A DNA stretch of 37,907 nt from a bacterium (lineage in GTDB: Bacteria > CG2-30-53-67). The stretch's first letter is position 1. Every line of letters starts with the position of its first letter. Made by a program: the position numbers and the translations under genes. Of the stretch, positions 6,393 through 35,953 are shown one piece after another. The stretch is from assembly GCA_919901565.1 (NCBI GenBank), contig CAKKPE010000014.1, positions 1-37,907 of the forward strand, written 5' to 3'. Below the pieces are notes generated by a model. It made no database searches, was not told the DNA's origin, and worked only from the letters and a program-made list of their open reading frames with translations.

Positions 6393-6959
6393 GGAATACA
6401 CCATCTTTTAAGCAACCACCAGCTCAAACTGGAACGGCTTATCAATACCGACAGTCTTGCTGACAAGGAGTGGATAGAAGAACATCAGAAGATCGCCTAC
6501 AAGTATTTTGTTATTGCGACGCTCCTTTTCGGTCTTCAGGTGGTTTTCGGCCTTATTTTGGGTGCAAAGTATGTATGGGATGTTGATCCTTTAATCCATA
6601 TCCTCCCCTTTAATACATCAATAGCGATACACGTAAACCTCCTCATTGTATGGCTCCTCTTCGGCTTCATGGGAGGGACCTACTACCTTGTTCCTGAAGA
6701 GACCGAAACAGAGATATACAGTACAGGGCTCGCTAAACTGCAACTCTACCTCTTTGCAGCCCTCGGCGTCACCGCCGTCATCGGATACATGGCGGGCTGG
6801 TCATGGGGTATGCCATTCCTTGAACAACCTACCATCCTTAAAATGGGCATCGTGGTGGTTGCGCTGATATTCCTATTCAATATTATGATCCTCATGGTAT
6901 TGGCACTGGCTGTTGCAGGGATCGTACAGGTATATAGTGTCGTGTCACGTGTAAAATGA
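6393..6959 (+). pseudogene. N-terminal fragment of a NorB-like haem-copper oxidase subunit
   Basis: The open frame begins right after a stop at 6390 and lacks an ATG before the conserved part (about 6405 onward: LKLERLIN...DKEWIEEHQKIAYKYF). A GTG at 6540 is internal to the similarity. The segment IAIHVNLLIVWLLFGFMGG followed by TYYLVPEE is characteristic of nitric oxide reductase NorB/qNOR-type subunits, where that His is a low-spin haem ligand. About four membrane helices are present, and the frame stops at 6959. Full-length members have 12 or more helices and further His ligands that are absent here. It is therefore a truncated remnant with a lost 5' start and lost catalytic core. Confidence 0.75.
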
Positions 6960-13262: not shown

Positions 13263-15560
13263 TTAATTCCTTGCAGGCGATGGCGATGCATCATTCTTCT
13301 GAAGCGACCGAAGATATGAAACGGTGTCCAAAATTTCTTGCGGGCTCATCGGTTCCCTGCGGAGGGCGGCGTTCTTCCCGCGAGCCAGCATGATCGTGTT
13401 GCCTCGCCCTATGGCGAGCGTTGCAGCCAGGTAGCCGTCCGATACGGTGGAAAGAAATTCCGGATTGCCTATGGCCAGAGTCAACCCCTTCACACCGCCC
13501 TGGCCATGACATGCAGTGCAGTCGCGTCTGAAGAGTTCGGCTCCTTTGACGGGGTTGCCGCCGCGCAGGGGGCGGTAGTCGGAAGGAGGAACAGGCAAGG
13601 GATCCTTGCTCCATGATTTCAAATAGGCGACAACGTCGCCCACATCGTCCGACGGCATCTCCGGCGGACCCGCAGGATGACCTTCCGGCGCTTTGGAATC
13701 GGCGGCCCATTCTCTGCACCGCTCCAGGCTGAGCGCCATAAATTCAGGTGACCCGCTTTGCAGAAGAACTGTGTTGTGAAGCGCAGTCGCCCAAGCACCC
13801 TCCCCATGTTTTCCGTGACAGCTCGCACAATGATCGGCATAGACCTTCGCTCCCCGCAGCTCATCTCCAAGAGCCGGAGCAGCCGTCTTCGTTGCTCCGC
13901 CGACTCCGGACTCTTTACGCCATTTTCGGAAGTAAGCAAGAAGTCCCGCCAAATCCTCGTCAGGAAGATCCGCCCATGCAGGCATGGCAGCCTGCGGACG
14001 GCCATTTACCATCGATTCATATAGGAAACGGTCATCGGCGATACGCAGGAATGTGGCGCTGTTGAGGCGCGGACCTATTCCGCCCTGCCCGGAGTCGCCG
14101 TGGCAGATTGCGCAATGTCTCGCATAGGCGCTTACCCCACGTTTTGCGTCACCTTGAATGGCGGCAATACGGCTGTATGGGCGCGGCTTGGGCCTCATGC
14201 TCTCAATGTAGTTGAGTAGAGCCTCGATACTCGGCCGGTCCAGTGACTCTTTCCAACTCGGCATTTCTCTGTCCGCACGTCCATTCTGTACCGCTTCTCG
14301 AATTTGTTCCGGCTGTGCAATTCGCAGGAAATCGGGATTGAGTATACCGGGGATTGATAAACCTATCGAAGTGAATGCCTTTCCCTCCCCTTTACTTCCA
14401 TGGCATGCTGAACAATATCTCATGAAAAGAGCTTCACCATCCGGCTCAGCAAACATGGCCATGGAACGGGTATCCTGAGGAATGTAGCTGTCGGTCAATT
14501 CAGGCTCTGCACGCAGGGAAAGAACATACGTAGTCAACGCATGGGCAGCCTCTTCAGACATTTCCATAAGCGGCATCTTACTGCCCGGCGACACCCGTAC
14601 CGGATCGAGAAAGTGCTCATACAGCCAGTTGGGCACAGAATGTTCACCTTTGATCCCTTTGAACGAGAACATATGCTCAACTTTTTGACCTTCGTTGGTC
14701 AAGTCCGGTCCCAGTGCTCCGCCGGCGCCTTTAATCTTGTGACATCCTCCGCAGCCGTACTGATCATACAGCAATCGGCCAAGAGCCAGATTAGGGGCTC
14801 CATGACGAGTCAGCAGGAACTTCTGCAGGGTCTCCATCTCTTGACTCTCAAGTTCACCCAAAGCAGGTCTCTTCGAATCGTAATTGCGGCCATAGTCAGG
14901 ATGTCCGTGCCACCACTTCATACCTATAAGACTAAGACCCCGTGTGGTGAGATCGGGACCATTCCCTCCGCCCATACCGTCCACCCGGTGGCAATCGACA
15001 CACCCGGCATCACTGAATGCCTTACGCCCTCTTTGAACCAGATCGGCATCGGCATACTGCAGATCTTTATGGCAGCGGCCGCACTCGGCTGTATAGTACT
15101 CTCGATGAAGCAGAGGATAATCCCAGAAGTGTCCCTCGAACTTGGCATCCTCATAGACCAGGGAGCGTCCCTGCCCGCGGTGGCATACCGTACAACCAAA
15201 CTTCTCCGGGGGATGGATCGACAGAAGTTCGCCCGGATGTGTGCGAAATGGCTGTTCCTGATCCGCCATTGCCGGGTTATCGACTCCGGGGTGGCACGTG
15301 ATACAACGGTCCACCTTCTTCAGTTCAGGCAGGACGTTTTGAATAATCCTGACTTCAAACTGCCCTGCTATCATCTTGCCCTTCTCATCCACAGCTTTTT
15401 CTTTCAGTATCTTGGCATATTCTTGGCGGATCGACCGCCACTGCGGAAATATATTCTCCTGCAAGATGGCGATAATCAGCAGCATCAGTGTAGGAAAGCT
15501 GATAATAAGCAACGCCCACTTGATCTTCCGATCCATGTTTTCGATATCGATTCGCGGCAT
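13263..15560 (-). CDS. membrane-anchored nine-haem cytochrome c (chimeric)
   Basis: A 765-residue protein with one N-terminal membrane anchor (about residues 14-34) and nine CXXCH sites, at residues 86, 123, 160, 187, 270, 383, 483, 578 and 681. The first three sites are closely packed, as in small multihaem proteins. The remaining six sit in successive monohaem cytochrome c-like modules (GxGxxGPxL after the haem, MP or PM motifs as possible Met ligands). It looks like a fusion of a triheme head with a chain of class I cytochrome domains facing the periplasm. It follows the cytochrome b gene by 98 bases and probably replaces cytochrome c1 as electron exit of the Rieske/cytochrome b complex. 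GAGG six bases before ATG supports the start. Confidence 0.88.
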   Translation of the reverse strand: MPRIDIENMDRKIKWALLIISFPTLMLLIIAILQENIFPQWRSIRQEYAKILKEKAVDEKGKMIAGQFEVRIIQNVLPELKKVDRCITCHPGVDNPAMADQEQPFRTHPGELLSIHPPEKFGCTVCHRGQGRSLVYEDAKFEGHFWDYPLLHREYYTAECGRCHKDLQYADADLVQRGRKAFSDAGCVDCHRVDGMGGGNGPDLTTRGLSLIGMKWWHGHPDYGRNYDSKRPALGELESQEMETLQKFLLTRHGAPNLALGRLLYDQYGCGGCHKIKGAGGALGPDLTNEGQKVEHMFSFKGIKGEHSVPNWLYEHFLDPVRVSPGSKMPLMEMSEEAAHALTTYVLSLRAEPELTDSYIPQDTRSMAMFAEPDGEALFMRYCSACHGSKGEGKAFTSIGLSIPGILNPDFLRIAQPEQIREAVQNGRADREMPSWKESLDRPSIEALLNYIESMRPKPRPYSRIAAIQGDAKRGVSAYARHCAICHGDSGQGGIGPRLNSATFLRIADDRFLYESMVNGRPQAAMPAWADLPDEDLAGLLAYFRKWRKESGVGGATKTAAPALGDELRGAKVYADHCASCHGKHGEGAWATALHNTVLLQSGSPEFMALSLERCREWAADSKAPEGHPAGPPEMPSDDVGDVVAYLKSWSKDPLPVPPSDYRPLRGGNPVKGAELFRRDCTACHGQGGVKGLTLAIGNPEFLSTVSDGYLAATLAIGRGNTIMLARGKNAALRREPMSPQEILDTVSYLRSLQKNDASPSPARN

Positions 15561-15658: not shown

Positions 15659-17209
15659 TCAATGGGCCGGCCAATCATGTGTGCTCCAGTAAAATCCCCA
15701 ATTCGGACCCCGCAGAAATGTTCCGACGTAGGTCAAGATGGTAAAGCCTATCAGGAAGCACGAGAATAAGGCAAGGGCTCCCATACGGGATGAACCTGTT
15801 TTGCGCATCACGATAATAGACCAGGCCGCATAAATTGCAGCCAGTATGCTGCCGGGATTGAAGGCAATGATAAACAGTTGGTTGATATGCGGAAACCATT
15901 CACGCAGCCACCCGAAATTTACAGGGATAGCAACTGTAAGAACCGCAGCGACCGCAGCAAAGGCCATTGACCATAGGGTGATCCGTTTCCCCTCCGAACC
16001 GCTGAACCAGACACCGGCCGGCTCGTTTTCCCGATCGAGAAAAGGAACCAAGGCTAAGCCGATAAGGGCTATCCCCGGGACCACGGTCCCCCCAACGAAG
16101 GCTGAATAGGAGAGGAGTTCCTGTACACCCAGGAAGTACCAGGGAGCCTTGGCCGGGTTCTCAGGCAATAAAGGATTAGCCGGTCCTTTTAAGGGAGCGT
16201 CGGAGATCATTGCCAGGGCTAGACAGATCAGCATGTTGATCATAAAAATCAGGAGTTCCGCGCGCAAAAGATACGGCCAGGAAGAGACTGTCTCATCGGG
16301 ATTCAGTCCGGTATGCGAGGTCTTTCCCTTGATCACAGCCATCAGGCCATAGGTCTTGCTCGGCGCCTTTTCCGGCGGGACCGGCTCCGGAGACATGGTC
16401 CCAACACCCTTGCCCGCGGCGACCGGCGTCCCCTCGGGACGCCCAAGCCCGCCATCCTTGCGAATCCGCCAGATATGGACGCCTATGGCCATGCTGATCA
16501 GGATCGGAAAGAGCATCACATGGAGCATATAGAATCGTATCAAGGCGTCTTGACCCACTTCGCTTGATCCCAGAAAGAGCTCCTTCGGAAAATTGCCGAG
16601 CTTATGAAACACTTGCGGCAGCCCCAGGGCGTGAATCAGTTCGTTCGCAGAACCGAGGATATTGGCAACGATCAATAGAGCCCAGTAGCCGAGCTGATCC
16701 CACGGCAGGAAGTATCCTGTCAATGAAAGCGCCAGTGTCAGCACAAAGAGGACTATTCCGAGCAGCCAATTGAACTCCCTCGGCGACTTGTACGAGGAGG
16801 TATAGAAGACCCTCGCCATATGAAGAAAAACGAAAAGGACCATCATGTGCGCCGCCCACCGGTGAGCGTTTCGGATCAGGCGTCCGGCCGGTACGACATA
16901 GTGCAGGTCCTTGATGGAATCATAAGCGAGGTCGAGCGACGGGACGTAGTAGACCATCAACAGGATGCCGGTTATCGTCAAAATGATAAATTGCGATATG
17001 AGCGATACTCCAAGCCCCCATGTCGCTGTCAGACGAAGAGAATTGGGATGTACCCGCGTTGAATGGATATGAAGAAAGAAATTGCTGAAGACCGCCTGAG
17101 AACGGGTTCGATCCGAGGTCGGCGCCCCGTGCCGGATGAATGAATTATAAAAATTCAGGGGCATCGCCTTAATATTTCCCCAAAAACTGTTGTTTTCCGA
17201 AGAAGGCAT
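15659..17209 (-). CDS. cytochrome b of a bc-type quinol oxidoreductase
   Basis: A 516-residue cytochrome b containing both the cytochrome b6-like and subunit IV-like parts in one chain. Counting from this ATG, haem ligands are His116 and His130 in helix B (AHRWAAHMM...FLHMARVFY) and His230 and His245 in helix D (MLHVML...GVHIWR). The helix D pair is separated by 14 residues, the b6-type spacing. The quinol-site PEWY motif is replaced by APWY (KAPWYFLGVQEL). The C-terminus carries extra helices and ends RGPNWGFYWSTHDWPAH, seen in non-proteobacterial bc complexes. A GTG two codons upstream is an alternative start. It lies 18 bases after the Rieske gene and is clearly its partner. Confidence 0.93.
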   Translation of the reverse strand: MPSSENNSFWGNIKAMPLNFYNSFIRHGAPTSDRTRSQAVFSNFFLHIHSTRVHPNSLRLTATWGLGVSLISQFIILTITGILLMVYYVPSLDLAYDSIKDLHYVVPAGRLIRNAHRWAAHMMVLFVFLHMARVFYTSSYKSPREFNWLLGIVLFVLTLALSLTGYFLPWDQLGYWALLIVANILGSANELIHALGLPQVFHKLGNFPKELFLGSSEVGQDALIRFYMLHVMLFPILISMAIGVHIWRIRKDGGLGRPEGTPVAAGKGVGTMSPEPVPPEKAPSKTYGLMAVIKGKTSHTGLNPDETVSSWPYLLRAELLIFMINMLICLALAMISDAPLKGPANPLLPENPAKAPWYFLGVQELLSYSAFVGGTVVPGIALIGLALVPFLDRENEPAGVWFSGSEGKRITLWSMAFAAVAAVLTVAIPVNFGWLREWFPHINQLFIIAFNPGSILAAIYAAWSIIVMRKTGSSRMGALALFSCFLIGFTILTYVGTFLRGPNWGFYWSTHDWPAH

Positions 17210-17227: not shown

Positions 17228-17695
17228 CTATACCCGATAAAATTCGGCTTGTTTGGTCTCTCTCGCGTTGTCCACTAAGATTGTTCCATCAGGCGCCTGT
17301 GAAACGGCCAGCCACTTCAGTGACCGGGGTGCAGGTCCGCCGATCACATTGCCGATTCTGTCAAACTTCGACCCGTGGCAGGGGCACGTAAATCCTTCTC
17401 CCGTATCCCGTACGATGCAGCCCAAGTGTGTGCATACCAGCGAAAGCGCCCCTATCCCCTCATTGGTGGCCACTATCCGCACCTTCCGATCCGGAATGTC
17501 CTTGGTTGTTCCAGGCGGGAAATCCGTCGGTTTCCCCACGCGGAAGATACTGGACGCCTCAGGCGATACACGCGGTCTTGGCAGGCGGAGCATCCCGATC
17601 GTAGAGATGAGGATTGCAAGAAATGCCGACCATAACCCCGCCAACCCCAGAAAATCGCGGCGAGTCACTGCCTCTTTTTCTAATCTACCTGCCAT
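17228..17695 (-). CDS. Rieske [2Fe-2S] protein
   Basis: A 155-residue Rieske protein. A TAT-like signal anchor (TRRDFLGLAG then a hydrophobic helix to about residue 36) should place the cluster domain in the periplasm. Cluster motifs are CTHLGC (88-93) and CPCHGS (104-109), giving the two Cys and two His ligands. It takes the first electron from quinol at the cytochrome b site. I chose the ATG at 17695, which has AGGAG eight bases upstream; the longer frame to 17770 lies inside the preceding gene. The start overlaps the flavoprotein gene by 16 bases, so the two proteins are probably made in a coupled way. Confidence 0.93.
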   Translation of the reverse strand: MAGRLEKEAVTRRDFLGLAGLWSAFLAILISTIGMLRLPRPRVSPEASSIFRVGKPTDFPPGTTKDIPDRKVRIVATNEGIGALSLVCTHLGCIVRDTGEGFTCPCHGSKFDRIGNVIGGPAPRSLKWLAVSQAPDGTILVDNARETKQAEFYRV

Positions 17696-19599
17696 TTCAA
17701 TTTCTCCTCGAGGATAAAACGTTCCATGGTTATCGCGCCGGTGGGACAGCGTTCGGCACAAAGACTGCATCGAATGCAGACCGTTTCATCCTTTATGATT
17801 GCCGAGGCCGACTCTGACGGAAAGCCGTCCAGTTGGCCCGACAAAACCTCACCCAATTCTTTTTCTCCCGTTATCTGATCCAACGGTACGATCCGGAGGC
17901 AGTCTTCAGGACAGACATCCACACAGCCTCCGCACAAAATACACCGCTCACCGTCAAAGATCGTGTTGACGCTGCAATCCAGGCAGCGGCTCGCCTCACA
18001 CCGTGCCTCCTCGTCAGCAAAATTCTTCTCCACGGGGCGGTTCTGTCCGGCAAGACGATCCTTCACGGGCGTGGTAGGGAGTACATGGCGCCGTCTCTTT
18101 TCATACCCAGGCTCCCGCTTGTATGCGGCAAGAGGGAAATGGAGTTCCACGTCTTTTGCCACGATCTTGCGTCCTGTAAATTTTTCATATACGGAACGTG
18201 CAACAGACTTGCCCGAGGCTATTGCATGGATCATCAATTTGGTGCCATATGCCAGGTCCCCTGCCACGAAAACATCAGGCACGGAAGTCGTTCCGGTCAC
18301 GGGATCGCAAGCGATAAAACCGCGCCCGGTTAGTTTCAGACCATCCCGTTCGGCATCAATAAATGAGATGTCTACGGTCTGGCCGATGGAGATAAGGACA
18401 TTATCGCAGGGGATTTCAGTAACATCGTTTTCGTCAAAGAGAGGACTGAAGCGCCGCTGTTCATCAAAGACTCGAATGCAGCGATGGAACCTTACTCCCA
18501 CAACACGCCCGTCTTCAACCTGAATCTCCTTGGGCCCAATGCTGTTGTGGCGGATGACCCCCTCCTCGTCTCCCTCGATAATCTCGACGTCGTCGGCCGG
18601 CATTTCCTCAAGGGATTCGAGCGAACATAGGTGTACCTCGCTGACTCCCATTGACCGCTTCGCAGTACGTGCGGCATCGAGCGAGATCTGGCGCAGAACC
18701 GTTCGGCCTACATCATACGCAACATTTCCACCCCCAATGACGACCACGCGTCCTCCGAGTTGAAGTGGATTGCCGATCGAGATATCCCTCAGGAATTCAA
18801 CGCCTCCGATAACACCCTCAGCATTGCTCCCCGGAATCGGAAGTTTGCTCGACCGCTTGGCGCCGACGGCGACGATCACCGCATCGTGCCGCTCCCTTAA
18901 CTCAGGAAACGAAACGTCGCGGCCCACGCAGCAGTTCGGGACCCCTTTCACGCCCATGGCAGTAATCACTTCAATCTCGGCTTGAATCAGATCACGGGGG
19001 AGGCGATATTCGGGAATACCCACGGTGAGCATGCCGCCCAGCTTAGCTTCCATCTCGTAGATCGTAACCGAAAACCCGAGCAAAGCCAGGTCGTGGGCTG
19101 CGGCAAGCCCCGCAGGCCCGCAGCCGATAATGCCGATACTTTCCCCTTTTACGCGGGGGATCTCTTCATTGGTCAATGACTGCAGAAAAGGGAGGAGTTC
19201 TTCCTTCCGCTGACACTGTCGCGGAGCATATCGCTGCGAGGCCTCTTTGAGAAATTCTATCAGACTCTTTCCGCCGTCATCTCTCGCCTCCGGTCCGAAG
19301 CGTTCGCAGACAAACCGCTTCAACGGACGTATGGAGATCGGTTCGTCGAATTCACTCCGCCGGCAGGACCGCTCACACGGCGCTCCGCATACCCGTCCGC
19401 AGATCGACGCAAGGGGATTGGGCCCTCGGGCAATGAGGTAGGCCATTTCATCGTTGCCTTCGGCAATGGCCCGCACGTACCCCCGTGCGTCCGTGTGCAC
19501 GGGACAGGCCTCCTGGCACTTGATCTGCTCACGCCAGTACGCATGATCCGGCACCCGGACGTTCCAAGACTCCTTGCCCTTTTCATGTTCCCGGCTCAC
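17680..19599 (-). CDS. GltD-like FAD/NAD(P) iron-sulfur oxidoreductase
   Basis: A 639-residue flavoprotein of the glutamate-synthase small-subunit type. An N-terminal Fer4_20-like region has CQEACP and ICGRVCGAPCERSCRR cysteines for two 4Fe-4S clusters. A FAD site (GIIGCGPAGLAAA) lies near residue 156, and an NAD(P) site (VVIGGGNVAYD) near 286. A second FAD segment is FVAGDLAYG. The C-terminus adds CEASRCLDC and two ferredoxin-type motifs (CILCGGCVDVCPEDC and CIRCSLCAERCP). No signal peptide is visible, so it should face the cytoplasm. I chose GTG at 19599 (AAGGA six bases upstream); a TTG at 19614 is the alternative. Lying between a cytochrome c and the Rieske gene, it could link NAD(P)H or ferredoxin to the quinone complex; that is inference. 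Confidence 0.88.
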   Translation of the reverse strand: MSREHEKGKESWNVRVPDHAYWREQIKCQEACPVHTDARGYVRAIAEGNDEMAYLIARGPNPLASICGRVCGAPCERSCRRSEFDEPISIRPLKRFVCERFGPEARDDGGKSLIEFLKEASQRYAPRQCQRKEELLPFLQSLTNEEIPRVKGESIGIIGCGPAGLAAAHDLALLGFSVTIYEMEAKLGGMLTVGIPEYRLPRDLIQAEIEVITAMGVKGVPNCCVGRDVSFPELRERHDAVIVAVGAKRSSKLPIPGSNAEGVIGGVEFLRDISIGNPLQLGGRVVVIGGGNVAYDVGRTVLRQISLDAARTAKRSMGVSEVHLCSLESLEEMPADDVEIIEGDEEGVIRHNSIGPKEIQVEDGRVVGVRFHRCIRVFDEQRRFSPLFDENDVTEIPCDNVLISIGQTVDISFIDAERDGLKLTGRGFIACDPVTGTTSVPDVFVAGDLAYGTKLMIHAIASGKSVARSVYEKFTGRKIVAKDVELHFPLAAYKREPGYEKRRRHVLPTTPVKDRLAGQNRPVEKNFADEEARCEASRCLDCSVNTIFDGERCILCGGCVDVCPEDCLRIVPLDQITGEKELGEVLSGQLDGFPSESASAIIKDETVCIRCSLCAERCPTGAITMERFILEEKLKWQVD

Positions 19600-19657: not shown

Positions 19658-19972
19658 CTATTTGCACTTCAAACTGCTGTAATGGGCCGCCAGATTTTCG
19701 ATATCCGCGTCGGTCAGCGGCTTGGCCATGGGGCTCATCACCGGATCCGAGCGGGTCCCATCCCGGAATGCCTTGAGCTGTTTAATGATGTAGTCCTTTT
19801 TCTGTGCCGCCAGGTTCGGCCACATGGGGTTACTGCTGATTCCATCGGGGCCGTGACATGCGGCGCAGATGGCTGCGGCTTTCTCCTTGCCGATGTCGGT
19901 GTCTTTGGACTGAGCCGATCCGTACACGCCCAACAGGGCAACGACCATTAATAATTTAGTCAAATGTTTCAT
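19658..19972 (-). CDS. small periplasmic cytochrome c (class I, c553-like)
   Basis: A 104-residue monohaem cytochrome c. It has a cleavable-looking signal peptide (MKHLTKLLMVVALLGVYGSA), a CAACH haem site near residue 36, and MSPMAKPLTDADIENLAAHY, where a Met can be the distal ligand. The shape fits a soluble class I cytochrome that shuttles electrons in the periplasm. It is the first gene of the second respiratory unit, with a strong promoter about 110 bases upstream. Confidence 0.88.
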   Translation of the reverse strand: MKHLTKLLMVVALLGVYGSAQSKDTDIGKEKAAAICAACHGPDGISSNPMWPNLAAQKKDYIIKQLKAFRDGTRSDPVMSPMAKPLTDADIENLAAHYSSLKCK

Positions 19973-20153: not shown

Positions 20154-20675
20154 TCATGGTTGCCCTTCATTCCGAATCTTCACCGCTCCCGCACCTTGAA
20201 GGATCTCTACCGCCTTGTTCTGCTGAGCCCCGTCCTGACAGCTCACAGAGATCCCGATCAACCCTTGGGAAATTCCCGGATCGTACACTTTATTCTTGAA
20301 GCCGGGCAGTCCCATCTCCAGGAACATCCCTCCGATGGTTCCAAGAATAGCGAAGAGCATCATAAACTCAAAGGTGATGATCCCCACTGGAAAGAGCGAG
20401 ATGATCGGTTTATCGCCGGTATGCAGGGGGTATAACCAGGCCGTACCCGCAGCCAGCAAGAACCCGAAACCCGCTCCCATCATCCCGCCCGCCAGGGAGA
20501 TCCAGCGTAAAAAAGAGCGGCCTTCATCCTTCACGATGACTCCGTCGGGATAGGGCCCTGAGGAGATAGACGTGATCTCTTTCTCAGAGAAGCCTCCCTG
20601 GACGAGTGCTTCAGCCGCGGCCGCTGCTGTTTCTAAATCTTTATAGAGTCCCAGTATTTCCACACGATTACTCAT
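20154..20675 (-). CDS. actD: ActD-like membrane subunit (DUF3341)
   Basis: A 173-residue DUF3341 protein. An N-terminal cytoplasmic alpha-beta domain (residues 1-50, EILGLYKDLETAAAAAEALV) is followed by two membrane helices (about 57-82 and 93-118) and a C-terminal domain (GLIGISVSC...AVEILQGAGAVKI). This is the layout of ActD, a structural subunit of alternative complex III. Its start overlaps the end of actC by eight bases. It is the last gene of the first respiratory unit. Confidence 0.88.
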   Translation of the reverse strand: MSNRVEILGLYKDLETAAAAAEALVQGGFSEKEITSISSGPYPDGVIVKDEGRSFLRWISLAGGMMGAGFGFLLAAGTAWLYPLHTGDKPIISLFPVGIITFEFMMLFAILGTIGGMFLEMGLPGFKNKVYDPGISQGLIGISVSCQDGAQQNKAVEILQGAGAVKIRNEGQP

Positions 20676-22044
20676 CTGTGATAATGGTCTTCAATTTGGC
20701 CCGCCCCAGACGTGCCTCCGACTTGAAATGCTCGCCTTCCAGCATATCGTTGATGGAGACAATGGGGAAAAACTTGGCAAAGAGAGTATAAAGAAGTGCA
20801 AACCCGGCAAAGGCCGCAACCATAATCGAGACCTCCACCCAGGTCGGACGGTAATCTCCCCAGATAAAGGGGACGTTTCTGTGGGACAGGATCGGAACAA
20901 TGATCAGGAATCTTTCAATGAACATCCCCACATTCACGAACAGAGAAATGAGCAGCATGGCCGGAACGGACCTCCGTATCCTTTTAAAACAGAGCGCAGG
21001 AATCGTGATAAAGGAGTTCCCCAATACCATCAAACCGAGTAGAAAACAGTATTTCTCTCCGGTAAAGATGAAGACCTCCCACTCGATGGGCTTGTGTCCA
21101 TACCAGGTGGTCAGGATCTCGGCGAAATAGAAGTAGGACCAGAGCAGGGAGACGGTGAGGAGGATCTTCCCCATGTTGTCAAAATGGATTGGCCGGAGAT
21201 ATGCCTCCAGGTGAAAGGCCTTGCGTATTATCACCATGAGCGTGATCACGGCGGCCACGCCGGAGAAGATAGCCCCGATCACGAAATAGGGAGCAAAGAT
21301 GGTGCTGTGCCAGCCGGGGACCAGTGTCATGGCAAAATCCCATGAAACGATAGAGTGAACCGAGACGGCCACCGGGATAATCAGGACCGCCATGAGGGTA
21401 GAGGCCCTGGCGAATACGCGCCACTCGTGGGCCGTCCCGCGCCATCCCATGGCAAGCATCGAATAGAGTTTCTTTCTCCAGCCCGAAGACCGGTCCCGGA
21501 CGATGGCGAGATCCGGAAGCATCCCCAAGTAGAGAAAGAGAGAACTTCCGATGATATAGACGGTAATGGCCATGATATCCCAGAGGAGCGGCGAGCGGAA
21601 GTTCGGCCAGAGGCCCCGCTGGTTCGGAATGGGGAGAAAGTAGAGGAGCTTCCATGGGCGGCCCAGATGGATCAGGGGGAAGGTTCCGGCCACCATGATC
21701 GCAAAGACCGTCATGGCCTCGGCCCCGCGCAGGATGGGCCTTCGCCATTCGGCCTTGGTAAGACGCAGGATTGCGGAGACCATAGTCCCTGAATGGGAAA
21801 GGCCCACCCAGAAGACAAAGCTGACGATGTAGAAGCCCCACATCACGGGCAGGTTGATTCCGGCCACTCCCAAGCCCATGCGGATCTGGTATCCCCAGGC
21901 AATGGCCCCCCAGATCACCACGAGGCCCAGGAACCCCGAAAGAAGAAACCACTTCCAGGTGGGCGGGTTCATGGATGAGGTCAAATCCTGCTGCACGGCC
22001 TCAACCTTTTCCGGGGTCAGATCTTCTTCATCGGACATGCTCAT
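20668..22044 (-). CDS. actC: ActC / NrfD-family quinone-interacting membrane subunit
   Basis: A 458-residue integral membrane protein of the NrfD/PsrC family with about ten helices. The region GINLPVMWGFYIVSFVFWVG then LSHSGTMVSAILRL is typical of ActC, where the periplasmic-side quinol site lies next to the iron-sulfur subunit. It also contains EWRRPILRGAEAMTVFAIMV and HLGRPWKLLYFLP, conserved in the family. The gene overlaps actB2 upstream by 17 bases and actD downstream by eight bases, so the three are tightly coupled. Usual ACIII loci also encode a second NrfD protein, ActF; none is present here. Confidence 0.92.
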   Translation of the reverse strand: MSMSDEEDLTPEKVEAVQQDLTSSMNPPTWKWFLLSGFLGLVVIWGAIAWGYQIRMGLGVAGINLPVMWGFYIVSFVFWVGLSHSGTMVSAILRLTKAEWRRPILRGAEAMTVFAIMVAGTFPLIHLGRPWKLLYFLPIPNQRGLWPNFRSPLLWDIMAITVYIIGSSLFLYLGMLPDLAIVRDRSSGWRKKLYSMLAMGWRGTAHEWRVFARASTLMAVLIIPVAVSVHSIVSWDFAMTLVPGWHSTIFAPYFVIGAIFSGVAAVITLMVIIRKAFHLEAYLRPIHFDNMGKILLTVSLLWSYFYFAEILTTWYGHKPIEWEVFIFTGEKYCFLLGLMVLGNSFITIPALCFKRIRRSVPAMLLISLFVNVGMFIERFLIIVPILSHRNVPFIWGDYRPTWVEVSIMVAAFAGFALLYTLFAKFFPIVSINDMLEGEHFKSEARLGRAKLKTIITDE

Positions 22045-22765
22045 GCCCCCCTCCCTTGAGGTAAATCACCGAGGGATCGGTCCCCAGATCCTCGATCAGC
22101 CTGAACCGCCTGGGACTTTTAGAAAATCGAAAGACCCGGCTCTTGGGATCGGCAAGATTCCCGAAGATAATGGCATCAGGCGGGCAGGTCTGTGCGCAGG
22201 CCGGCTGGATCTCTCCGTCTCTCACCGCCCTTCCATCAAGTCTGGCGGTTTCCTTTGCCCTTCGTATACGCTGAATACAGAACGTGCACTTCTCCATGAC
22301 CCCTTTGGTGCGGACGGTGACGTCGGGGCTCAGTTGCTGGTCCAGCGGCTCCGGGAATGAAGGCTCAAAAAAGTTGAAGACCCGGACCGAATAAGGGCAA
22401 TTGTTGGCGCAGTAGCGGGTCCCCACGCACCGGTTGTAGACCTGGGCGTTGAGCCCTTCGGCATTATGGTAGCTGGCATAGACCGGACAGACCGGCTCGC
22501 ACGGGGCGTTGTTGCACTGCTGGCAGAGGACCGGAATGAACCTCGCCCGGACATGCGGGTACTCCCCCTCCCAGTAGCGTTCGATCCGGATCCAGTGCAT
22601 GGCGCGCCCGTATCCGCTCAACTCCTTACCCACGAAAGGAACATTGTTTTCCGCATGACAGGCCACCACGCAGGCCCCGCACCCGGTGCACCGGTCCAGG
22701 TCAATGACCATGCCCCATTTGTATTTCACTGCACGCTCTTTTTTGTCTGTGTCTTTCATACTCAT
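22028..22765 (-). CDS. ActB2-like four-cluster ferredoxin subunit
   Basis: A 245-residue iron-sulfur protein of the NrfC/PsrB/DmsB type. Cysteine groups are CTGCGACVVAC, CQQCNNAPCEPVC, CVGTRYCANNC and CTFC...CAQTC, enough for four cubane clusters forming a wire. It lacks its own signal peptide, so it may be exported together with the TAT-bearing ActB1. In many alternative complex III systems this domain is the C-terminal part of a single ActB; here it is a separate gene. It lies 50 bases after actB1 and overlaps actC. Confidence 0.9.
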   Translation of the reverse strand: MSMKDTDKKERAVKYKWGMVIDLDRCTGCGACVVACHAENNVPFVGKELSGYGRAMHWIRIERYWEGEYPHVRARFIPVLCQQCNNAPCEPVCPVYASYHNAEGLNAQVYNRCVGTRYCANNCPYSVRVFNFFEPSFPEPLDQQLSPDVTVRTKGVMEKCTFCIQRIRRAKETARLDGRAVRDGEIQPACAQTCPPDAIIFGNLADPKSRVFRFSKSPRRFRLIEDLGTDPSVIYLKGGGHEHVR

Positions 22766-22815
22766 GAAGAATCAAAGATCAAAGATAAAAAATCAAAATC
22801 TTTAATTTCTACGGT

Positions 22816-25023
22816 TCAGATCTCCAGAAGCTCTCCCCGATAACTCCCTTCAGGATGCCCCATGACCGTGAGATCTCCTTTGTCGGAAATCCGGGTCAGA
22901 CGCACCCGGGTCGCGCCCCAGGCCGGAAGCACGTGCTCCTTGTCCATAACCGGCGCAAGGAGCCCGAGAGGATTTACACCGACTTTATCAGCATACCGGC
23001 CCATCCCATGATGCCCCTGTCCCATGGGTATGGCCACCGTATCCGGACGAATCGCCGGAAAGATCACGGCCGGCACCTGTACCGATCCCTGCGTTGACTC
23101 CACCATGACCAGATCTCCATGCTTGATGCCGAGAGACTCGGCAGTCTTGGGATTGATCTCCACCCAGGCGCCCCATACGGCTGTGGTCATGGGATCGGGC
23201 ATCTCCTGCAGCCAGGGTAAGTGAGCATTGCGTCCATCGTATATGACCGGCGAGGCAAAAAGAGCAAGATGGAAAGGGTATGCTTCTTTGTTACCCTCGA
23301 AATAAGGCTCCCGAACAGGAACCGGACTGACGCCCTTCTTTTGCGGTACGTCCAATACCGCCTCTTCTTGCTCAAAGAGTCCGCCCCTTTGCAGTATCTC
23401 CACCCAATTTTTTTCAGATGCCGTATCCGATGATCCATCGATCAATCTCTGAACCCTCTGTTTCAGCATATCGAGATAGTTTTTATAAGGGAGGACCTTC
23501 TCACCTTCTCCATCAAGACCCCGCGCTGCAGCCAGAAGCACGTCCCCAAAAGATCGGGTATCGTAGAGAGGGTTAACCACCGGCTGGAGAATCCCTGTGA
23601 CCTGGGAGTGTGCACCGACCCATGGGACCACATCCCCCCAACTCTCCAGATCCGTATGGTCAGGCAGAATCAGGTCCGCATGCATGGCCGTATCATCCAT
23701 GATGGAAGAGAAGCTGACCACAAAAGGAACTCTCTTGAAGGCCTCCTGGAACCGGATTGCAGAAGGGAGACCATGGACCGGATTGGTCCTGTAGACGAGT
23801 GCCAGATGGAACTCGTCCCTTTCCAAGGCGTCAACCTTGGAAAGCAGGTTCGCAAAACTGCTTGTGCTCCCTTGACCGACCGGAGGAGAGCAAAAAAGGA
23901 GCCCCCCCGGCTGCCCCACATTTCCAACCAGGAGATTCAGAAACTGAATGGCCTGCACCGCATCTTGGCCATTGGATTGGAAGACCACTGAATCTCCAAC
24001 CAGGGCCAGGGAAGGCTGTATGGTGGCAAAATCACGGGCTATGGAAGTGATCTCTTCTGGAGCAAGACCCGTCCTCTCCGCCACGGAATGTAGGTCGTAG
24101 TCCGAAAGTTTCTTCATCCATACTTCAGGGTTTCCCTCAACATTTTTTACCATCTCCCGGCTGTATAGACCTTGCTCAAGAATCAGCCGGGCCATACCCA
24201 GCGCCAGCACTCCTTCCTGCCCGACATTCACCGGCAGCCAACGGTCTGCGGACGCTGCGGTCATGGACATGCGCGCCCCCACATAAGTAAAGGCCCCGCG
24301 AATGGTCGGCCGGGACTGGCGCATCTTCCCGAAGGCATTCCCGTATCGGACCGGAGAGAGATAGGTCTCAAGAAAATCGGCCCCGAAACTCAAAAGATAC
24401 TGTGTCTTTTCCAGGTCGTAATCCGGAACGTCTCCGCGGCCGCAAACAGCCACATTGGCCTGTTCATAAGATTCCGTATTGAGCATTTCATAGGCAAGAT
24501 GATGCGGGGAGCCATACACGCTCATAAATGACCAGACAAGCTCCGACAGCGTCCCCTGAAGACGGGGGGTCATGAAGAGAAGGCGATCCGCATGCCCCTG
24601 TTTCTTCAGGTCGTTCAATTGTTCGAGCAAGAGACTCAGCCCCTCGTCCCAGGAAATGGGTGTAAACTCTCCGGACCCTTTTGCACCAACACGCTTCATG
24701 GGCTGACGAACCCTGTCGGGGTGATAGAGGTCCTGAAGGGCGGCCTGCCCCCGGGCACAGATCTTGCCCTTGTTCACCGGGTGTAAGGGATTGCCTTCAA
24801 TCTTTTTGGCCCTGCCCTCTGCCACACGAACAAGAATTCCGCATCCGGCCGGACACTGTCGGCAGGCACTGGCGAAATAGTTAGCCACACCGGGGATGGA
24901 TCCGTCATCCGGCGGGATCAGGAAGGGGATCAGCTTCTCGGTCCCTTTTCCGCATGAAGACAGCATGGTCCCGGCGGCGGTCAATCCGGTCAACTGCAGA
25001 AACTTTCTCCGTTTGATTCCCAT
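22816..25023 (-). CDS. ActB1-like molybdopterin-family catalytic subunit, TAT-exported
   Basis: A 735-residue protein of the molybdopterin oxidoreductase (CISM) superfamily. The N-terminus GIKRRKFLQLTG is a twin-arginine signal, followed by LSSC, which resembles a lipobox. A cluster-binding pattern CRQCPAGC...GKICARGQ remains near residues 54-88. The central region (YLLSFGADFLETYLSPVRYG) and C-terminal beta-barrel (WVEINPKTAESLGIKHGDLV) match ActB/PsrA-like folds. I cannot identify a Mo-ligating Ser/Cys/Asp, and in studied ACIII the domain carries no molybdenum, so whether it is catalytic is open. ATG at 25023 is chosen, though AAGGAGG is only 2-3 bases away; TTG at 25035 is the alternative. 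Confidence 0.88.
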   Translation of the reverse strand: MGIKRRKFLQLTGLTAAGTMLSSCGKGTEKLIPFLIPPDDGSIPGVANYFASACRQCPAGCGILVRVAEGRAKKIEGNPLHPVNKGKICARGQAALQDLYHPDRVRQPMKRVGAKGSGEFTPISWDEGLSLLLEQLNDLKKQGHADRLLFMTPRLQGTLSELVWSFMSVYGSPHHLAYEMLNTESYEQANVAVCGRGDVPDYDLEKTQYLLSFGADFLETYLSPVRYGNAFGKMRQSRPTIRGAFTYVGARMSMTAASADRWLPVNVGQEGVLALGMARLILEQGLYSREMVKNVEGNPEVWMKKLSDYDLHSVAERTGLAPEEITSIARDFATIQPSLALVGDSVVFQSNGQDAVQAIQFLNLLVGNVGQPGGLLFCSPPVGQGSTSSFANLLSKVDALERDEFHLALVYRTNPVHGLPSAIRFQEAFKRVPFVVSFSSIMDDTAMHADLILPDHTDLESWGDVVPWVGAHSQVTGILQPVVNPLYDTRSFGDVLLAAARGLDGEGEKVLPYKNYLDMLKQRVQRLIDGSSDTASEKNWVEILQRGGLFEQEEAVLDVPQKKGVSPVPVREPYFEGNKEAYPFHLALFASPVIYDGRNAHLPWLQEMPDPMTTAVWGAWVEINPKTAESLGIKHGDLVMVESTQGSVQVPAVIFPAIRPDTVAIPMGQGHHGMGRYADKVGVNPLGLLAPVMDKEHVLPAWGATRVRLTRISDKGDLTVMGHPEGSYRGELLEI

Positions 25024-25068
25024 AGCCTCCTTCAATTTAAAATCTCAAATCTCAAATTTGAAATCTCT

Positions 25069-25584
25069 TTATATATGGCACGTCCAGCAATCAATACTCA
25101 CCTTGTTCGTGCGGTGGCACCCCAGGCACCACCCCATCTTGAGGCTTGAAACCCTTCGGATCCGGTCCATGGTGGCCACGTCCCCGTGGCAGAAGGTACA
25201 AGCCACACCTGCATGGACGTGCATCTTGTGCTGGAAATAGACATAATCCGGAAGATCATGCACCTTGACCCATGGGACAGGCTCTTTTTTCTTCCAGTAC
25301 TCCATAAGTTTCTTGACCTCGGGATTGTCTCTGGCAATGATGATGTGATAATTCTTGCAGGTCTCCAGGTCCGGTACCCCGGCAGACTTTGAGACCTGGG
25401 CGTACCGATGGCAGTAGAGGCAATGGATCTCATTTTCCCCGGCATGGACCTTGTGGCTGAAGGCAATGGGCTGAACCGGGGACGGGTCCCCTGTGTCCAA
25501 GGGGATAAAATAGATACCGATAAGAGCTGCGGCAGCCGCCCCAACGAGAAGGACCAGGATGATCACAATCAGGAGCGTTCTCAT
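25069..25584 (-). CDS. actA: ActA-like multihaem cytochrome c with one degenerate haem site
   Basis: A 171-residue membrane-anchored cytochrome (anchor residues 4-27) with haem motifs CLYCH (55), CTFCH (129), CLGCH (153) and CWTCH (166). A fifth motif reads CKNYH (76-80): Tyr79 (TAT at 25350-25348, minus strand) stands where Cys is expected. ActA of studied alternative complex III is pentahaem, so this copy has lost one covalent attachment Cys, or carries a sequencing error. The layout (HKVH early, then CxxCH clusters) fits ActA and cytochrome c3-like families. It is the first gene of the act unit. Confidence 0.88.
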   Translation of the reverse strand: MRTLLIVIILVLLVGAAAAALIGIYFIPLDTGDPSPVQPIAFSHKVHAGENEIHCLYCHRYAQVSKSAGVPDLETCKNYHIIIARDNPEVKKLMEYWKKKEPVPWVKVHDLPDYVYFQHKMHVHAGVACTFCHGDVATMDRIRRVSSLKMGWCLGCHRTNKVSIDCWTCHI

Positions 25585-25707: not shown

Positions 25708-26559
25708 TTACCCATACTCTTCCATGATCTTTTCCAACCTTATTCTATCCACGTCCCTGCCGACCAGAGGGCCCCGATCCAGAACCGGAAATTTTGATTC
25801 GTAGGGTGCCCTGCTGTTGCGGTAGATAATGCCTACTGGGATCTTCTCACCCCATTTCATGGCAGTTGTCATGGCCGTGTCCCAGTTCTCAGGATCGTAC
25901 CCTTCTGGCAATTCATAGCATCTCTTCTTGTACCAGGCAAAGGTATTGACCTTGTTAAACGAGACGCAGGGTTGCAGAACATCGATGATCGAAAGGCCCC
26001 GGTGCTCGATCCCCTTCTGAATAATGCCCGTGAGGTGTTCGGCCATACCAGAAAAACTCCTGGCCACAAAACCGGCATGCATGGCCACGGCTACAGCCAC
26101 GGGATTGAACGGTTCATACTTCACCCCTTCAGGCTGGGCCTTGGTCACAAAACCTTGATCCGACGTGGGGCTTGCCTGTCCCTTGGTCAGTCCGTAGACC
26201 TGGTTGTTGTGCACCAGAACGGTGATATCCACGTTGCGCCGGATCGCCGACAGGAAATGGTTCCCCCCTTCCCCGTAGGTGCACCCGTCCCCGCTCTCGG
26301 CGATCACGGTCAGCCCCGGGTTGGCGAGCTTGGCGCCTGTGGCTACGGGAAGATGTCTCCCGTGCAGGCCGTTGAAGACATTGGCGTTCAGGTAATGGGG
26401 CGCCTTGGCGGCCTGTCCGATTCCGGACACAAAGAGAACCTGGTGAGGTTCGATCCCGCTTGCGGCCAGGGCCTGTTTGACAGCCTTGAGGATAGAGAAA
26501 TTTCCGCATCCCGGGCACCAGGCCGTTTCATAATCTCCATAATCGTGCTGTGTCACCAT
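25708..26559 (-). CDS. korB: 2-oxoacid:ferredoxin oxidoreductase beta subunit
   Basis: A 283-residue TPP-binding beta subunit. CPGCG at residues 15-19 provides cluster cysteines as in KorB/PorB, and GDGCTYGEGGNHFLSAIRRN with NNQVYGLTKGQ is the TPP/Mg site. The enzyme oxidatively decarboxylates a 2-oxoacid to the acyl-CoA with reduction of ferredoxin. The KGQASPTS motif favours a KorB (2-oxoglutarate) assignment over pyruvate, but the substrate is not certain. It follows korA after a 360-base repeat-filled gap, unusual because these genes are usually adjacent. Confidence 0.9.
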   Translation of the reverse strand: MVTQHDYGDYETAWCPGCGNFSILKAVKQALAASGIEPHQVLFVSGIGQAAKAPHYLNANVFNGLHGRHLPVATGAKLANPGLTVIAESGDGCTYGEGGNHFLSAIRRNVDITVLVHNNQVYGLTKGQASPTSDQGFVTKAQPEGVKYEPFNPVAVAVAMHAGFVARSFSGMAEHLTGIIQKGIEHRGLSIIDVLQPCVSFNKVNTFAWYKKRCYELPEGYDPENWDTAMTTAMKWGEKIPVGIIYRNSRAPYESKFPVLDRGPLVGRDVDRIRLEKIMEEYG

Positions 26560-26919
26560 AGGGCTTTACTCTCTAATAGATTCTCATACAGAGCGACAGA
26601 AGTGTTTGTCATTGTCCGGCTTGGAGGCTCTGTCTTAATCCTGATCTCTTCCTTATGTTCCTTCTCCCCTGCGGGGAGAAGGTTAGGATGAGGGGGCTCT
26701 TTCCGGTCAACCCCTCACCCTTGCCCTCTCCCCATTCATGGTGAGAGGGAATTTATTGATTGCCCTATACCTTGTCCACAAAAGAACTGAATCTCCATAA
26801 TTGTGACACAGTCTATTGGCCGGACAATCCACCCTTCGACAGGCTCAGGGTGACAGTTGTCATGGTGAGCTTGTCGAACCATGGATTCATCGATCGGGGA
26901 ATGACATGATGTCGTTGAC
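26560..26919. repeat. repeat cluster between korA and korB
   Basis: This gap holds no gene. It contains a CCTTCTCCCCTGCGGGGAGA-type unit (26660-26696) almost identical to 7015-7052, a facing CCCCTCACCC unit (26710-26750), and a CCCTTCGACAGGCTCAGGGT-type unit with its inverted partner (26831-26883). The cluster splits two genes that are normally transcribed together. Confidence 0.7.
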
Positions 26920-28593
26920 TTATGACGATCTGTTTATTGCCCTTAGAATCCACTCCGGTGTCATGGGGAGTCCGTCATACCGGAGTATCTTCCTTTTGAT
27001 TTCGAATCCGGTCTCCCGGCGGATCAACCGGGCAAGTTGACCCGTGGCGTTCCCCTCTACACAGACCACTTCCCGAGCCTCCTGTAAATGCCAGATGAAC
27101 TGGTCCGGCACCATGGGCCAGACCTGCTGGAAATGGAGTACCGCTGTTCGTCTTGTTTTCTGCGTCAGTCTGGATGCCGCCTCTTTCACTGAACCTTTTG
27201 CTGATCCCCAGGATACAAGAAGAAGATCCGGCCTTTCCTCTCCTTCGAACAGCGGCGGGATGACCTCGCTCATGATCCCCGTAATTTTTTTCAGACGTTT
27301 TTGCATCATCCGTTTCCGAATGGAGAGGTCTTCGGTGAGATGCCCATCTTCGGTATGTTCATCGCTGTCCGCCACCACGAGATGCCTGCTCTTTCCGGGG
27401 AGAATTCTGGGGGATACCCCGCTCTCTGTGAAGGCGTACCGGCGGTATGGTCCCTCTACGGATTCAGGGTCTGCTCCGGCATGGACCTGAGTCAGGGTTC
27501 CAATATCAAACGGGACGACAGCCCTGTAGGAATCTGCAAGGAACTGGTCCGTGAGGATCATGACCGGCCCCTGGTAACGTTCCGCCAGTTCGAAGGCCTT
27601 TCGTGTCAGGTGGAAGGACTCCTCCACGGTACCGGGGGCGAATACCGCCCTTGGGAATTCACCGTGCCCGGCGTGCAGCACCAGTTCCAGGTCGGCCTGC
27701 TCGGTCCGGGTGGGAAGTCCGGTGGCCGGTCCGGGACGCTGCCCGACCACGATCACAACAGGCGTTTCGGTCATGGCCGCGAGACTGACGCCCTCCACCA
27801 TCAGGGCGAACCCGCCGCCCGACGTGGCGGCCATGCTCGGCGCTCCGGCAAAAGAAGCCCCGATAGCCATGTTGATGACGGCGATCTCATCCTCTCCCTG
27901 CTCCACAATCAGGCCCATGTCCTGGGCCCGCGCAGCGAGATTCAGGGGTATCGAAGTCGAGGGGGTCATGGGATAGAAGGCGCAGAATCGGACACCGGCT
28001 GAAAGGGCGCCCAAGGCAACGGCATCATTCACATTCATCATCAATCTCGCAGGGGGATTAGGGATCATGGGGAGTTGCGGGAAAGAGACGGTCCGGCTTG
28101 AACACCAGCGGAATGCGGAATTCAGGACACGCCGGTTCTCCTCTGCAAGCTTGGTATCCTTTTTCCCGAAGAGATCGTCCAGCAAACGGGCGATCAGCTC
28201 TTCCTCAAGCCCCAGAAGGAATCCTGCGATCCCCAGGGCTGAAACATTGGAATACCGGGACTGGCAAAGGTCTTTGTAGGGGACCTTGAGACAGAGATTG
28301 TCCGGAATATTAAATTCCTGATCCGCAATCATGAGGCCTTGAGGTGAAAGTTCATCCTTATGAAGACGGACCGTTTCCCGATCCATGGCGATCAGGAGGT
28401 CCACGGATTCCTGCGGGGCCTGGATCTCCCCGGTACTCACACGGATGGCAAAGGTGTTGTGACCGCCCCGGATCCTGGACTGATAGCTCTGGGTCACAAC
28501 AATGAAATAGCCGCTCCGCACAAGACTCCTGGCGAGCAGCTCTCCGATGGTCACCAGGCCCTGTCCCGCTTCCCCGCCGATGAGGATATTCAG
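26920..28593 (-). CDS. korA: 2-oxoacid:ferredoxin oxidoreductase gamma-alpha fusion subunit
   Basis: The first part (about 180 residues) is the gamma domain and the rest is the alpha domain with YPMTPSTSIPLNLA and SGGGFALMVEGVSLAAMTETP, typical of KorA. The conserved start of the gamma domain, NILIGGEAGQG, lies upstream of the first normal start codon, a GTG at 28554 that falls right after it. In frame upstream there is no ATG, GTG or TTG close by, only CTG codons at 28593 and 28599. I therefore extend to CTG 28593; a start at 28554 would lose the conserved loop. It sits 13 bases after the ferritin-like gene stop, so translation may be coupled. Confidence 0.82.
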   Translation of the reverse strand: MNILIGGEAGQGLVTIGELLARSLVRSGYFIVVTQSYQSRIRGGHNTFAIRVSTGEIQAPQESVDLLIAMDRETVRLHKDELSPQGLMIADQEFNIPDNLCLKVPYKDLCQSRYSNVSALGIAGFLLGLEEELIARLLDDLFGKKDTKLAEENRRVLNSAFRWCSSRTVSFPQLPMIPNPPARLMMNVNDAVALGALSAGVRFCAFYPMTPSTSIPLNLAARAQDMGLIVEQGEDEIAVINMAIGASFAGAPSMAATSGGGFALMVEGVSLAAMTETPVVIVVGQRPGPATGLPTRTEQADLELVLHAGHGEFPRAVFAPGTVEESFHLTRKAFELAERYQGPVMILTDQFLADSYRAVVPFDIGTLTQVHAGADPESVEGPYRRYAFTESGVSPRILPGKSRHLVVADSDEHTEDGHLTEDLSIRKRMMQKRLKKITGIMSEVIPPLFEGEERPDLLLVSWGSAKGSVKEAASRLTQKTRRTAVLHFQQVWPMVPDQFIWHLQEAREVVCVEGNATGQLARLIRRETGFEIKRKILRYDGLPMTPEWILRAINRSS

Positions 28594-33605: not shown

Positions 33606-34037
33606 TCATTGCTCTTCATTTTTTTTGAAATATCCAAGAATCTCGGCCTGAAACAGGTCAAAATCCTTCAACCGGTTTCGTAGGATCGGAATGACAACTG
33701 CCGGATCAACCTTGTCATACTCATGAACCAGTACGTTTCGAAACTTACACATATTGACAAGATTCTCACAAAGAACTTCACTGATGATGTTATTTTCTTT
33801 CAGAATCCTGAATCCTTCTGAATAGGTATTGGGGATCCTGAAATTCCTGTCAGCAATAATATGGTTTACCATGTCCACACATACCTCAATGGCCATCTGC
33901 AGAGTTCTTTCAACAATACGCTGTATCTTCCAATCGGATTGATAATCATCCAGGCTGATCGAAGCGTACTCCTTTACCTGGTTGATGTAAGTCTTCAAGT
34001 CCGCCATTTTTCTCAGAATCATATTTTTATCAACCAA
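33606..34037 (-). CDS. hepT: HepT-like toxin (DUF86/HEPN)
   Basis: A 143-residue HEPN-fold protein. The RNase motif RNVLVHEY (R-x4-H-x-Y) lies near residue 109 and includes the Tyr that the partner nucleotidyltransferase modifies with AMP in studied systems. I chose TTG at 34037 because AGGAGG is seven bases upstream; it overlaps the end of mntA by eight bases. An ATG at 34022 and a TTG at 34070 are alternatives. Toxin and antitoxin are thus coupled. Confidence 0.85.
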   Translation of the reverse strand: MVDKNMILRKMADLKTYINQVKEYASISLDDYQSDWKIQRIVERTLQMAIEVCVDMVNHIIADRNFRIPNTYSEGFRILKENNIISEVLCENLVNMCKFRNVLVHEYDKVDPAVVIPILRNRLKDFDLFQAEILGYFKKNEEQ

Positions 34038-34452
34038 TACCAAACCTCCTGGTAAGTATCTTTTCCTCAAGGATACGGAAATCAGAAAACTTGCGCAGAG
34101 ATAAAGACTCGAAGTCGTGGCGTAAAAAATTATTCCGGCAAAAAAGATTTTTTTTCTTCATTAAAATTCTTCCAACAAGGGATATCGGTGCCGTGTTTAA
34201 AACCACGAGATCTACTTCATCAGTGCCCAGACAATCATTCACTTTTCCCAAGAGGTCCAGTTTTAAATCCAAGAAATCAGACCCTTCTTTAAAATAGACA
34301 GCAATATCAATATCCGAAAGAGGCCGGGGAAATCCTCTTGCTGCGCTGCCGAAAAGATATGCAAATTCAATCCTACCGAACTCTTTAAACAGTTCCGGCA
34401 GTTTTTCTATCCTTTTAAAGTTTTCTACAGGTATGGGCTTATTTCGAATCAT
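34030..34452 (-). CDS. mntA: MntA-like nucleotidyltransferase antitoxin
   Basis: A 140-residue minimal nucleotidyltransferase. The active site is FGSAARGFPRPLSDIDIAV, with a third acid in DEVDLVVL. Family members AMPylate the HepT toxin on its RX4HXY tyrosine and so neutralise it. It is the upstream gene of the pair, consistent with a type VII toxin-antitoxin module. No signal peptide is present. Confidence 0.87.
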   Translation of the reverse strand: MIRNKPIPVENFKRIEKLPELFKEFGRIEFAYLFGSAARGFPRPLSDIDIAVYFKEGSDFLDLKLDLLGKVNDCLGTDEVDLVVLNTAPISLVGRILMKKKNLFCRNNFLRHDFESLSLRKFSDFRILEEKILTRRFGIG

Positions 34453-34811: not shown

Positions 34812-35204
34812 TCAGAAATTCCGGACGTTGGTATTATCAATGGTCCAGGCTGGGCCAGTATCCCTGCCGCCGATACTTGTCGCCGTGGCCGTAAAGGTCT
34901 GCGCCGGTGCCGCACCCACTGCCACAGAATATGTATATAAGGAGCCTGTATCCGGCTGGAATCCTGGAAGGCCGGCCGTAATGGCCGCCGTATTGGCGAA
35001 AGCACCTGCATAGAAATTATTTTCCGCGTAGAACTGCTCTTCCAAAAGCCTCAATGCCTGAAGATCGGTCCAGGCCACGCTCCGTTCCGCCCTGAGCCGG
35101 TACCCGATATACCCTGGTATGGCGATGGCGCCCAGAATCCCGATGATGGCCACGACAACCATCAGCTCAATAAGAGTATAACCCAAGTTATTCTTGAGTC
35201 GCAT
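34812..35204 (-). CDS. type IV pilin-like protein (PilE-like)
   Basis: A 130-residue pilin-like protein. A short basic leader (MRLKNNLG) ends at the prepilin peptidase site before YTLIELMVVVAIIGILGAI, with the conserved Glu5. Processing and N-methylation by PilD are expected. The globular part has SVAWTDLQALRLLEEQFYAE and a Gly/Thr-rich C-terminus, as in minor or PilE-type pilins, without a Cys pair. GGAGG lies five bases before the ATG at 35204. It is last of three pilin genes in the same direction. Confidence 0.88.
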   Translation of the reverse strand: MRLKNNLGYTLIELMVVVAIIGILGAIAIPGYIGYRLRAERSVAWTDLQALRLLEEQFYAENNFYAGAFANTAAITAGLPGFQPDTGSLYTYSVAVGAAPAQTFTATATSIGGRDTGPAWTIDNTNVRNF

Positions 35205-35291
35205 TGTTTCCTCCAATATTTTTTGTGACTTTTTTTAAAGCTCATTTTATCCCGCACCATCACAGTTGCCGGCAATGAGATCGCCTATGAC

Positions 35292-35873: not shown

Positions 35874-35953
35874 CTCAGTCACCGTGAAATGCTCAAGTAA
35901 GCCGCATATCGTTAGTGTGCACTATCCTCGGGAAACAAGTCAAGAAACAATAG

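Follow-up and report, generated by a model that had tools for sequence, protein, structure and literature searches.

The window, i.e. the whole stretch of 37,907 nucleotides analysed here, carries on its minus strand a run of genes for electron-transfer proteins. In the direction of transcription, it begins with a small exported mono-haem cytochrome c (19658–19972), a candidate soluble electron carrier encoded 58 nt upstream of the gene of an NAD(P)-linked FAD/iron-sulfur flavoprotein (17680–19599; 639 aa, with a GTG start at 19599 and a TAG stop ending at 17680). A Rieske [2Fe-2S] protein follows (17228–17695; 155 aa, ATG at 17695), then a cytochrome b in which b6 and subunit IV are fused in one chain (15659–17209; starting at ATG 17209 or GTG 17215) and, finally, a cytochrome c (13263–15560) that is anchored in the membrane, contains nine CXXCH motifs and replaces cytochrome c1/f in this set.

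The preliminary description of this DNA had noticed that the last 16 bases of the flavoprotein gene are also the start of the Rieske gene. The sequence bears an exact 16-nt overlap on the minus strand (17680–17695; ATGGCAGGTAGATTAG), with a ribosome site, GAGGAG, just upstream of the Rieske start. An overlap of exactly -16 nt is found at 10 loci, the window among them (L009-L011, L013-L016, L020 and L061); among the other flavoprotein/Rieske loci, 16 have overlaps of -4 to -31 nt and 21, mostly more distant, have a gap. The overlap thus exceeds chance, and translational coupling of the two genes through it is plausible. The fixed ratio of the two proteins that had also been suggested does not follow from a gene overlap.

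The flavoprotein contains the Pfam domains Fer4_20, Pyr_redox_2 and two Fer4, and has neither a signal peptide nor a transmembrane helix. The earlier reading of a GltD-like protein with FAD and NAD(P) sites and cysteines for about four iron-sulfur clusters agrees with these domains and with 16 cysteines conserved among its relatives linked to Rieske/cytochrome b (R/b) genes (positions 28, 32, 67, 71, 75, 79, 539, 542, 553, 556, 559, 563, 608, 611, 614 and 618), 15 of them present in 66/66 sequences and C67 in 59/66. They would be enough for four [4Fe-4S] clusters; in the Kuenenia flavoprotein, the FAD-proximal cluster was modelled with three cysteines (Hauser et al. 2025; PMC12954380). An AlphaFold2 model (pLDDT 84.6) had NfnABC as its closest fold, in agreement with the best sequence match in the PDB, and NfnABC is likewise the match reported for the Kuenenia protein (PMC12954380). 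The second Rossmann strand of the window flavoprotein ends in SLES, where NADP-type GltD and Nfn proteins have YRR; at this position, 55 of the 66 R/b-linked flavoproteins have E and 6 have RR. Thioredoxin reductase, with HRR, uses NADPH, whereas AhpF, with an acidic residue, uses NADH. By this comparison, the window flavoprotein probably prefers NAD(H) over NADP(H). The SLES-type motif also occurs in some unlinked homologs and is, therefore, not diagnostic of the complex. We also rejected Arg504/515 as a complex-specific mark, as most unlinked homologs keep these residues too.

The domain resemblance to GltD raised the question of whether the protein could be an ordinary glutamate synthase small subunit lying here by chance. 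Both share the Fer4_20 and Pyr_redox_2 domains, but the window protein differs in its extra C-terminal ferredoxin domain with additional clusters, its NAD-type motif, its own phylogenetic branch and the lack of an adjoining GltB gene. The GltD/gltA models scored far below their cut-offs (208 vs 472, 173 vs 448 and 160 vs 483 bits). In a careful phylogenetic tree of 39 rows, complemented by a larger quick tree, the R/b-linked flavoproteins formed one group with moderate support (84/81); together with a planctomycete paralog clade, this group was split at 100/99 from GltD and from those paralogs of the window's own genome that were included. The window protein belonged to a 23-row clade (99/98) with anammox proteins of the flavoprotein-Rieske-cytochrome b order. 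Glu_synthase (GltB-type) matches exist on other contigs of the genome (C58, C35 and C50) and none on the contig of the window; the one on C58 adjoins a different GltD-like gene, of 776 aa. Consequently, what had been proposed as grounds for abandoning the idea of a respiratory role, namely a grouping with GltD and a GltB partner elsewhere, was not what we found: the protein is off the GltD branch and the GltB-type gene has another GltD-like neighbor. The window flavoprotein is neither needed as a subunit of glutamate synthase nor a close relative of one, and we rejected this identity as highly improbable.

The Rieske protein bears a Tat anchor (TRRDFLG) and the cluster motifs CTHLGC and CPCHGSKF. 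Given the Tat anchor and the lack of an export signal in the flavoprotein, these established sorting signals would place the Rieske center outside and the flavoprotein in the cytoplasm. The best PDB match of the Rieske protein was Kuste4569 (9rk4; 6e-19), and it retains the Ser and has a Phe, the same Ser/Phe pair as Kustd1480. The measured potentials of these two anammox proteins are +303 mV (Kuste4569) and +335 mV (Kustd1480) (PMC12954380).

The cytochrome b has the four histidines of haems b, a Qo motif APWY, a further histidine in the motif SNFFLH, and a WRIRK motif. In anammox bacteria, a new haem was proposed between two such histidines (His43 of Kuste4571, His62 of Kustd1481), with its propionates near Arg247 or Arg266/Lys267 (PMC12954380). 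The spacings His43-Arg247 and His62-Arg266 are both of 204 residues, and the same 204 residues separate the first His of W/F-L-H from the second Arg of WRIRK in the anammox loci L121 and L122, which fixes the alignment columns. These columns are conserved in the window protein as His45, Arg248 and Lys249 (numbered from base 17203). We considered the histidine as a mark of flavoprotein-bearing complexes but rejected it, since cytochromes b with no flavoprotein beside them can have it too (e.g. own-genome contig C84, G011 and G029; with short flanks at some loci, the number of such unlinked cytochromes b is an upper bound), and three flavoprotein-linked ones lack it. It belongs rather to a wider ExtP-like class. 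The cysteine that binds haem cN in b6f is Gly63 in the window; it is absent in 44 of the 48 flavoprotein-linked cytochromes b from non-anammox genomes and present in all 17 cytochromes b sampled from anammox genomes. The window complex thus appears to be a variant of the anammox-type R/b complex and not a straight member.

A homolog scan with the flavoprotein alone retrieved 28 loci. The order flavoprotein-Rieske-cytochrome b was found in all of the best 17 of these 28 (the named relatives L009-L025), which come from several phyla (record titles: Hydrogenedentota, Latescibacterota, Wallbacteria, Binatota, Myxococcota, Deltaproteobacteria, Planctomycetota and others). Holophagaceae loci whose flanks are long enough show the flavoprotein gene ~2.3 kb past the Rieske-b-c genes. 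In L010, L014, L020 and L022 the multihaem cytochrome c gene is followed by that of a NapA-like molybdenum enzyme with a Tat signal. The genome of the window itself has a second flavoprotein-Rieske-cytochrome b set on contig C81 (L041:10107-19985 and L042:16-2169), with an overlap of -8 nt, followed by genes for a Tat-exported DMSO-reductase-type-II alpha subunit (selenate/ethylbenzene dehydrogenase-like), a gamma subunit and a chaperone. A third Rieske/b6/subunit IV set, on contig C84 (L181:4454-8801), is accompanied by NrfD-like and ExtM-like multihaem c genes and has no adjacent flavoprotein. A partial RpoB of the host reaches only 48–62% in its matches to the named genomes compared. Between some phyla, the flavoproteins are more alike (67–69%) than the part of RpoB compared (59–62%), so that transfer between lineages is possible. 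This gene set, which seems to join an NADH-handling flavoprotein to a respiratory Rieske/cytochrome b complex, is common to many distantly related uncultured bacteria. In the freely readable literature we found no description of a flavoprotein-bearing R/b complex outside anammox bacteria, so its novelty is provisional. The available excerpts of a paper on Nitrospina describe a Rieske/b6/octahaem c operon common to Nitrospina, Kuenenia and Methylomirabilis, and in these excerpts we found no discussion of a flavoprotein in that shared operon.

A link with the Rieske/b flavoproteins of anammox planctomycetes had been pointed out in the preliminary description, and literature, synteny, phylogeny and sequence similarity all bear it out. 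Putative NAD(P) oxidoreductases occur in Kustd1480-1485 and Kuste4569-4574, for which a bifurcation yielding NAD(P)H was proposed (PMC12954380). Quinol bifurcation in anammox bacteria had been proposed by Kartal et al. and is supported by the high Rieske potentials of Hauser et al. 2025, although the mechanism of NAD(P)+ reduction is itself a proposal, for which those authors name the potential of haem cN and quinone reduction at the inner side as difficulties (PMC12954380). The window's cytochrome b is devoid of the ligand of this haem, which favors the bifurcation reading. Calling genomes anammox by a match to the hydrazine synthase alpha family, we found the flavoprotein family inside R/b clusters in five genomes with full-length matches, in three arrangements: the Kuste4569-like Rieske-flavoprotein-b, the Kustd1480-like Rieske-b-flavoprotein and, as in the window, flavoprotein-Rieske-b. 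The genome of the window had no match to hydrazine synthase alpha.

The genes, their conserved synteny, the phylogeny, the cofactor motifs, the Tat/no-signal topology and the loss of the haem cN cysteine were observed directly, and we infer assembly into one complex, the electron path, its direction and the NAD specificity. That the flavoprotein is a subunit or dedicated partner of the Rieske/cytochrome b complex is very likely; in our proposal it would be the cytoplasmic NAD-binding subunit. Menaquinol (the quinone suggested by the menaquinone gene MqnA found in the genome) would be oxidized on the outer (P) face of cytochrome b. A high-potential Rieske center would take one electron and hand it to the nine-haem cytochrome c, from which it would reach an acceptor outside; the second electron would pass from haem bP to haem bN, the four iron-sulfur clusters, FAD and NAD+, possibly by way of an inter-monomer haem, bound by the SNFFLH histidine, between haem bN and the clusters. 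Two turnovers would produce one NADH. This is our leading model. For the mechanism as a whole, direction included, i.e. menaquinol bifurcation to NADH in a homolog of the anammox complexes R/b-2 and R/b-3, we see about equal chances of its being right or wrong. We found no biochemical demonstration in the literature of NAD+ reduction by any member of the family.

The Tat-exported molybdenum enzymes beside the sister clusters could accept the high-potential electron, the one on C81 being a candidate. A bd oxidase is present in the genome. As for a heme-copper oxidase, we rejected it as acceptor: the only PF00115 match in this 97%-complete genome is a fragment in the window itself (6396–6959, plus strand), an open frame of 188 aa that corresponds to the N-terminal third of a COX1/NorB-family protein and is probably a remnant. 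NADH turnover is independent of the R/b complex, since four Complex I 51-kDa-type (NuoF-like) matches were found in the genome as well. One of them is fused to a GltD-like protein: this 1040-aa protein on contig C31 (L043:7736-10858), with a NuoF-type FMN domain and a Fer4_20/Pyr_redox GltD-like part, resembles a flavin-bifurcating transhydrogenase. Upstream of the R/b set, a Qrc/alternative complex III-like cluster (20154–25584, minus strand) encodes QrcA-, QrcB-, QrcC-, NrfD- and ActD-like proteins; the cluster is a mixture of alternative complex III and Qrc menaquinone reductase types, with all its Qrc hits below the NCBIfam cut-offs, and we regard it as a neighbor. Elsewhere on the minus strand, the window carries a HepT-like and nucleotidyltransferase pair, likely a HepT/MNT toxin-antitoxin system (33606–34452), and three consecutive genes with type IV pilin N-methylation motifs (34812–36566).

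Other readings of the same genes have to be weighed against menaquinol bifurcation. The complex might run in reverse, the flavoprotein oxidizing NADH and feeding cytochrome b from inside, either to reduce quinone or to confurcate with other donors. Flavoproteins with this fold can work in both directions, the NAD-type motif would suit such a function, and the bd oxidase and the Qrc/alternative complex III-like genes would offer outlets for quinol; nevertheless, this direction would be wasteful beside complex-I-type genes, as was argued for Kuenenia (PMC12954380), and inner-side quinone reduction becomes less b6f-like when haem cN is missing, which makes the reverse run unlikely in our opinion. 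The flavoprotein could also be soluble, an NAD(P) oxidoreductase merely co-transcribed with the Rieske and cytochrome b genes and never bound to their products. The three gene orders indicate that adjacency can be rearranged, but the flavoprotein remains in the cluster across phyla and through these rearrangements. In addition, all Kuste4569-4574 subunits were reported to co-migrate (PMC12954380), and we regard a purely soluble enzyme as improbable.

A slightly lower probability still is given to a link of the complex, through the flavoprotein, to ferredoxin or to the upstream 2-oxoacid:ferredoxin oxidoreductase, in which NAD would be a partner or an allosteric ligand. The C-terminal 2x[4Fe-4S] domain and the PorAB-type genes at 25708–28554 speak for it. 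However, the clusters of NfnABC-type homologs are an internal wire, and the homolog scan showed no PorA/PorB homologs beside the sister clusters.

If menaquinol bifurcation is indeed the function, many uncultured bacteria could form NADH from menaquinol by electron splitting, without reverse complex I, and quinone-based bifurcation would reach beyond proton pumping. A question raised by hard-to-grow anammox bacteria would then shift to a wider family that includes simpler, haem cN-free versions. New here are the loss of the haem cN cysteine, the NAD-type instead of NADP-type motif, and the Tat-exported molybdoenzymes beside sister clusters. Put more generally, quinol-bifurcating NAD+ reductases might be a respiratory device used across several bacterial phyla and no speciality of anammox bacteria, of which the window branch, as a dedicated form, would have lost haem cN (a competing inner electron sink), become NAD-specific and been coupled to an adjacent oxidant reductase; we advance this broader idea only tentatively.

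Several known systems resemble the window set in part. With canonical b6f/bc1 complexes it shares the Rieske motifs, the four haem-b histidines and the Qo-type motif APWY, but it adds an NAD-linked flavoprotein, has a multihaem cytochrome c in the place of c1/f and an extra histidine near the N terminus of cytochrome b and, compared with b6f, misses the haem cN cysteine. NfnABC/StnABC (9bov, 9bp5 and 8oh5) are the best match in sequence and fold over the Fer4_20, FAD/NAD and C-terminal Fe-S parts; they differ in being soluble and in carrying out flavin-based bifurcation with other subunits, with no Rieske/b partnership. The anammox R/b-3 (Kuste4569-4574) and R/b-2 (Kustd1480-1485) differ from the window set, which has the flavoprotein-Rieske-b order (though this also occurs in some anammox genomes), fused b6 and subunit IV, no haem cN cysteine, a nine-haem cytochrome c, no HAO-like gene recognized beside it and no hydrazine synthase alpha in its genome. 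Nevertheless, they are alike in the combination of a Rieske protein, a b6-type cytochrome b, a GltD-like oxidoreductase and a multihaem cytochrome c, as well as in the flavoprotein family itself, the positions of the extra-haem His/Arg/Lys residues, and NfnABC as the best PDB match.
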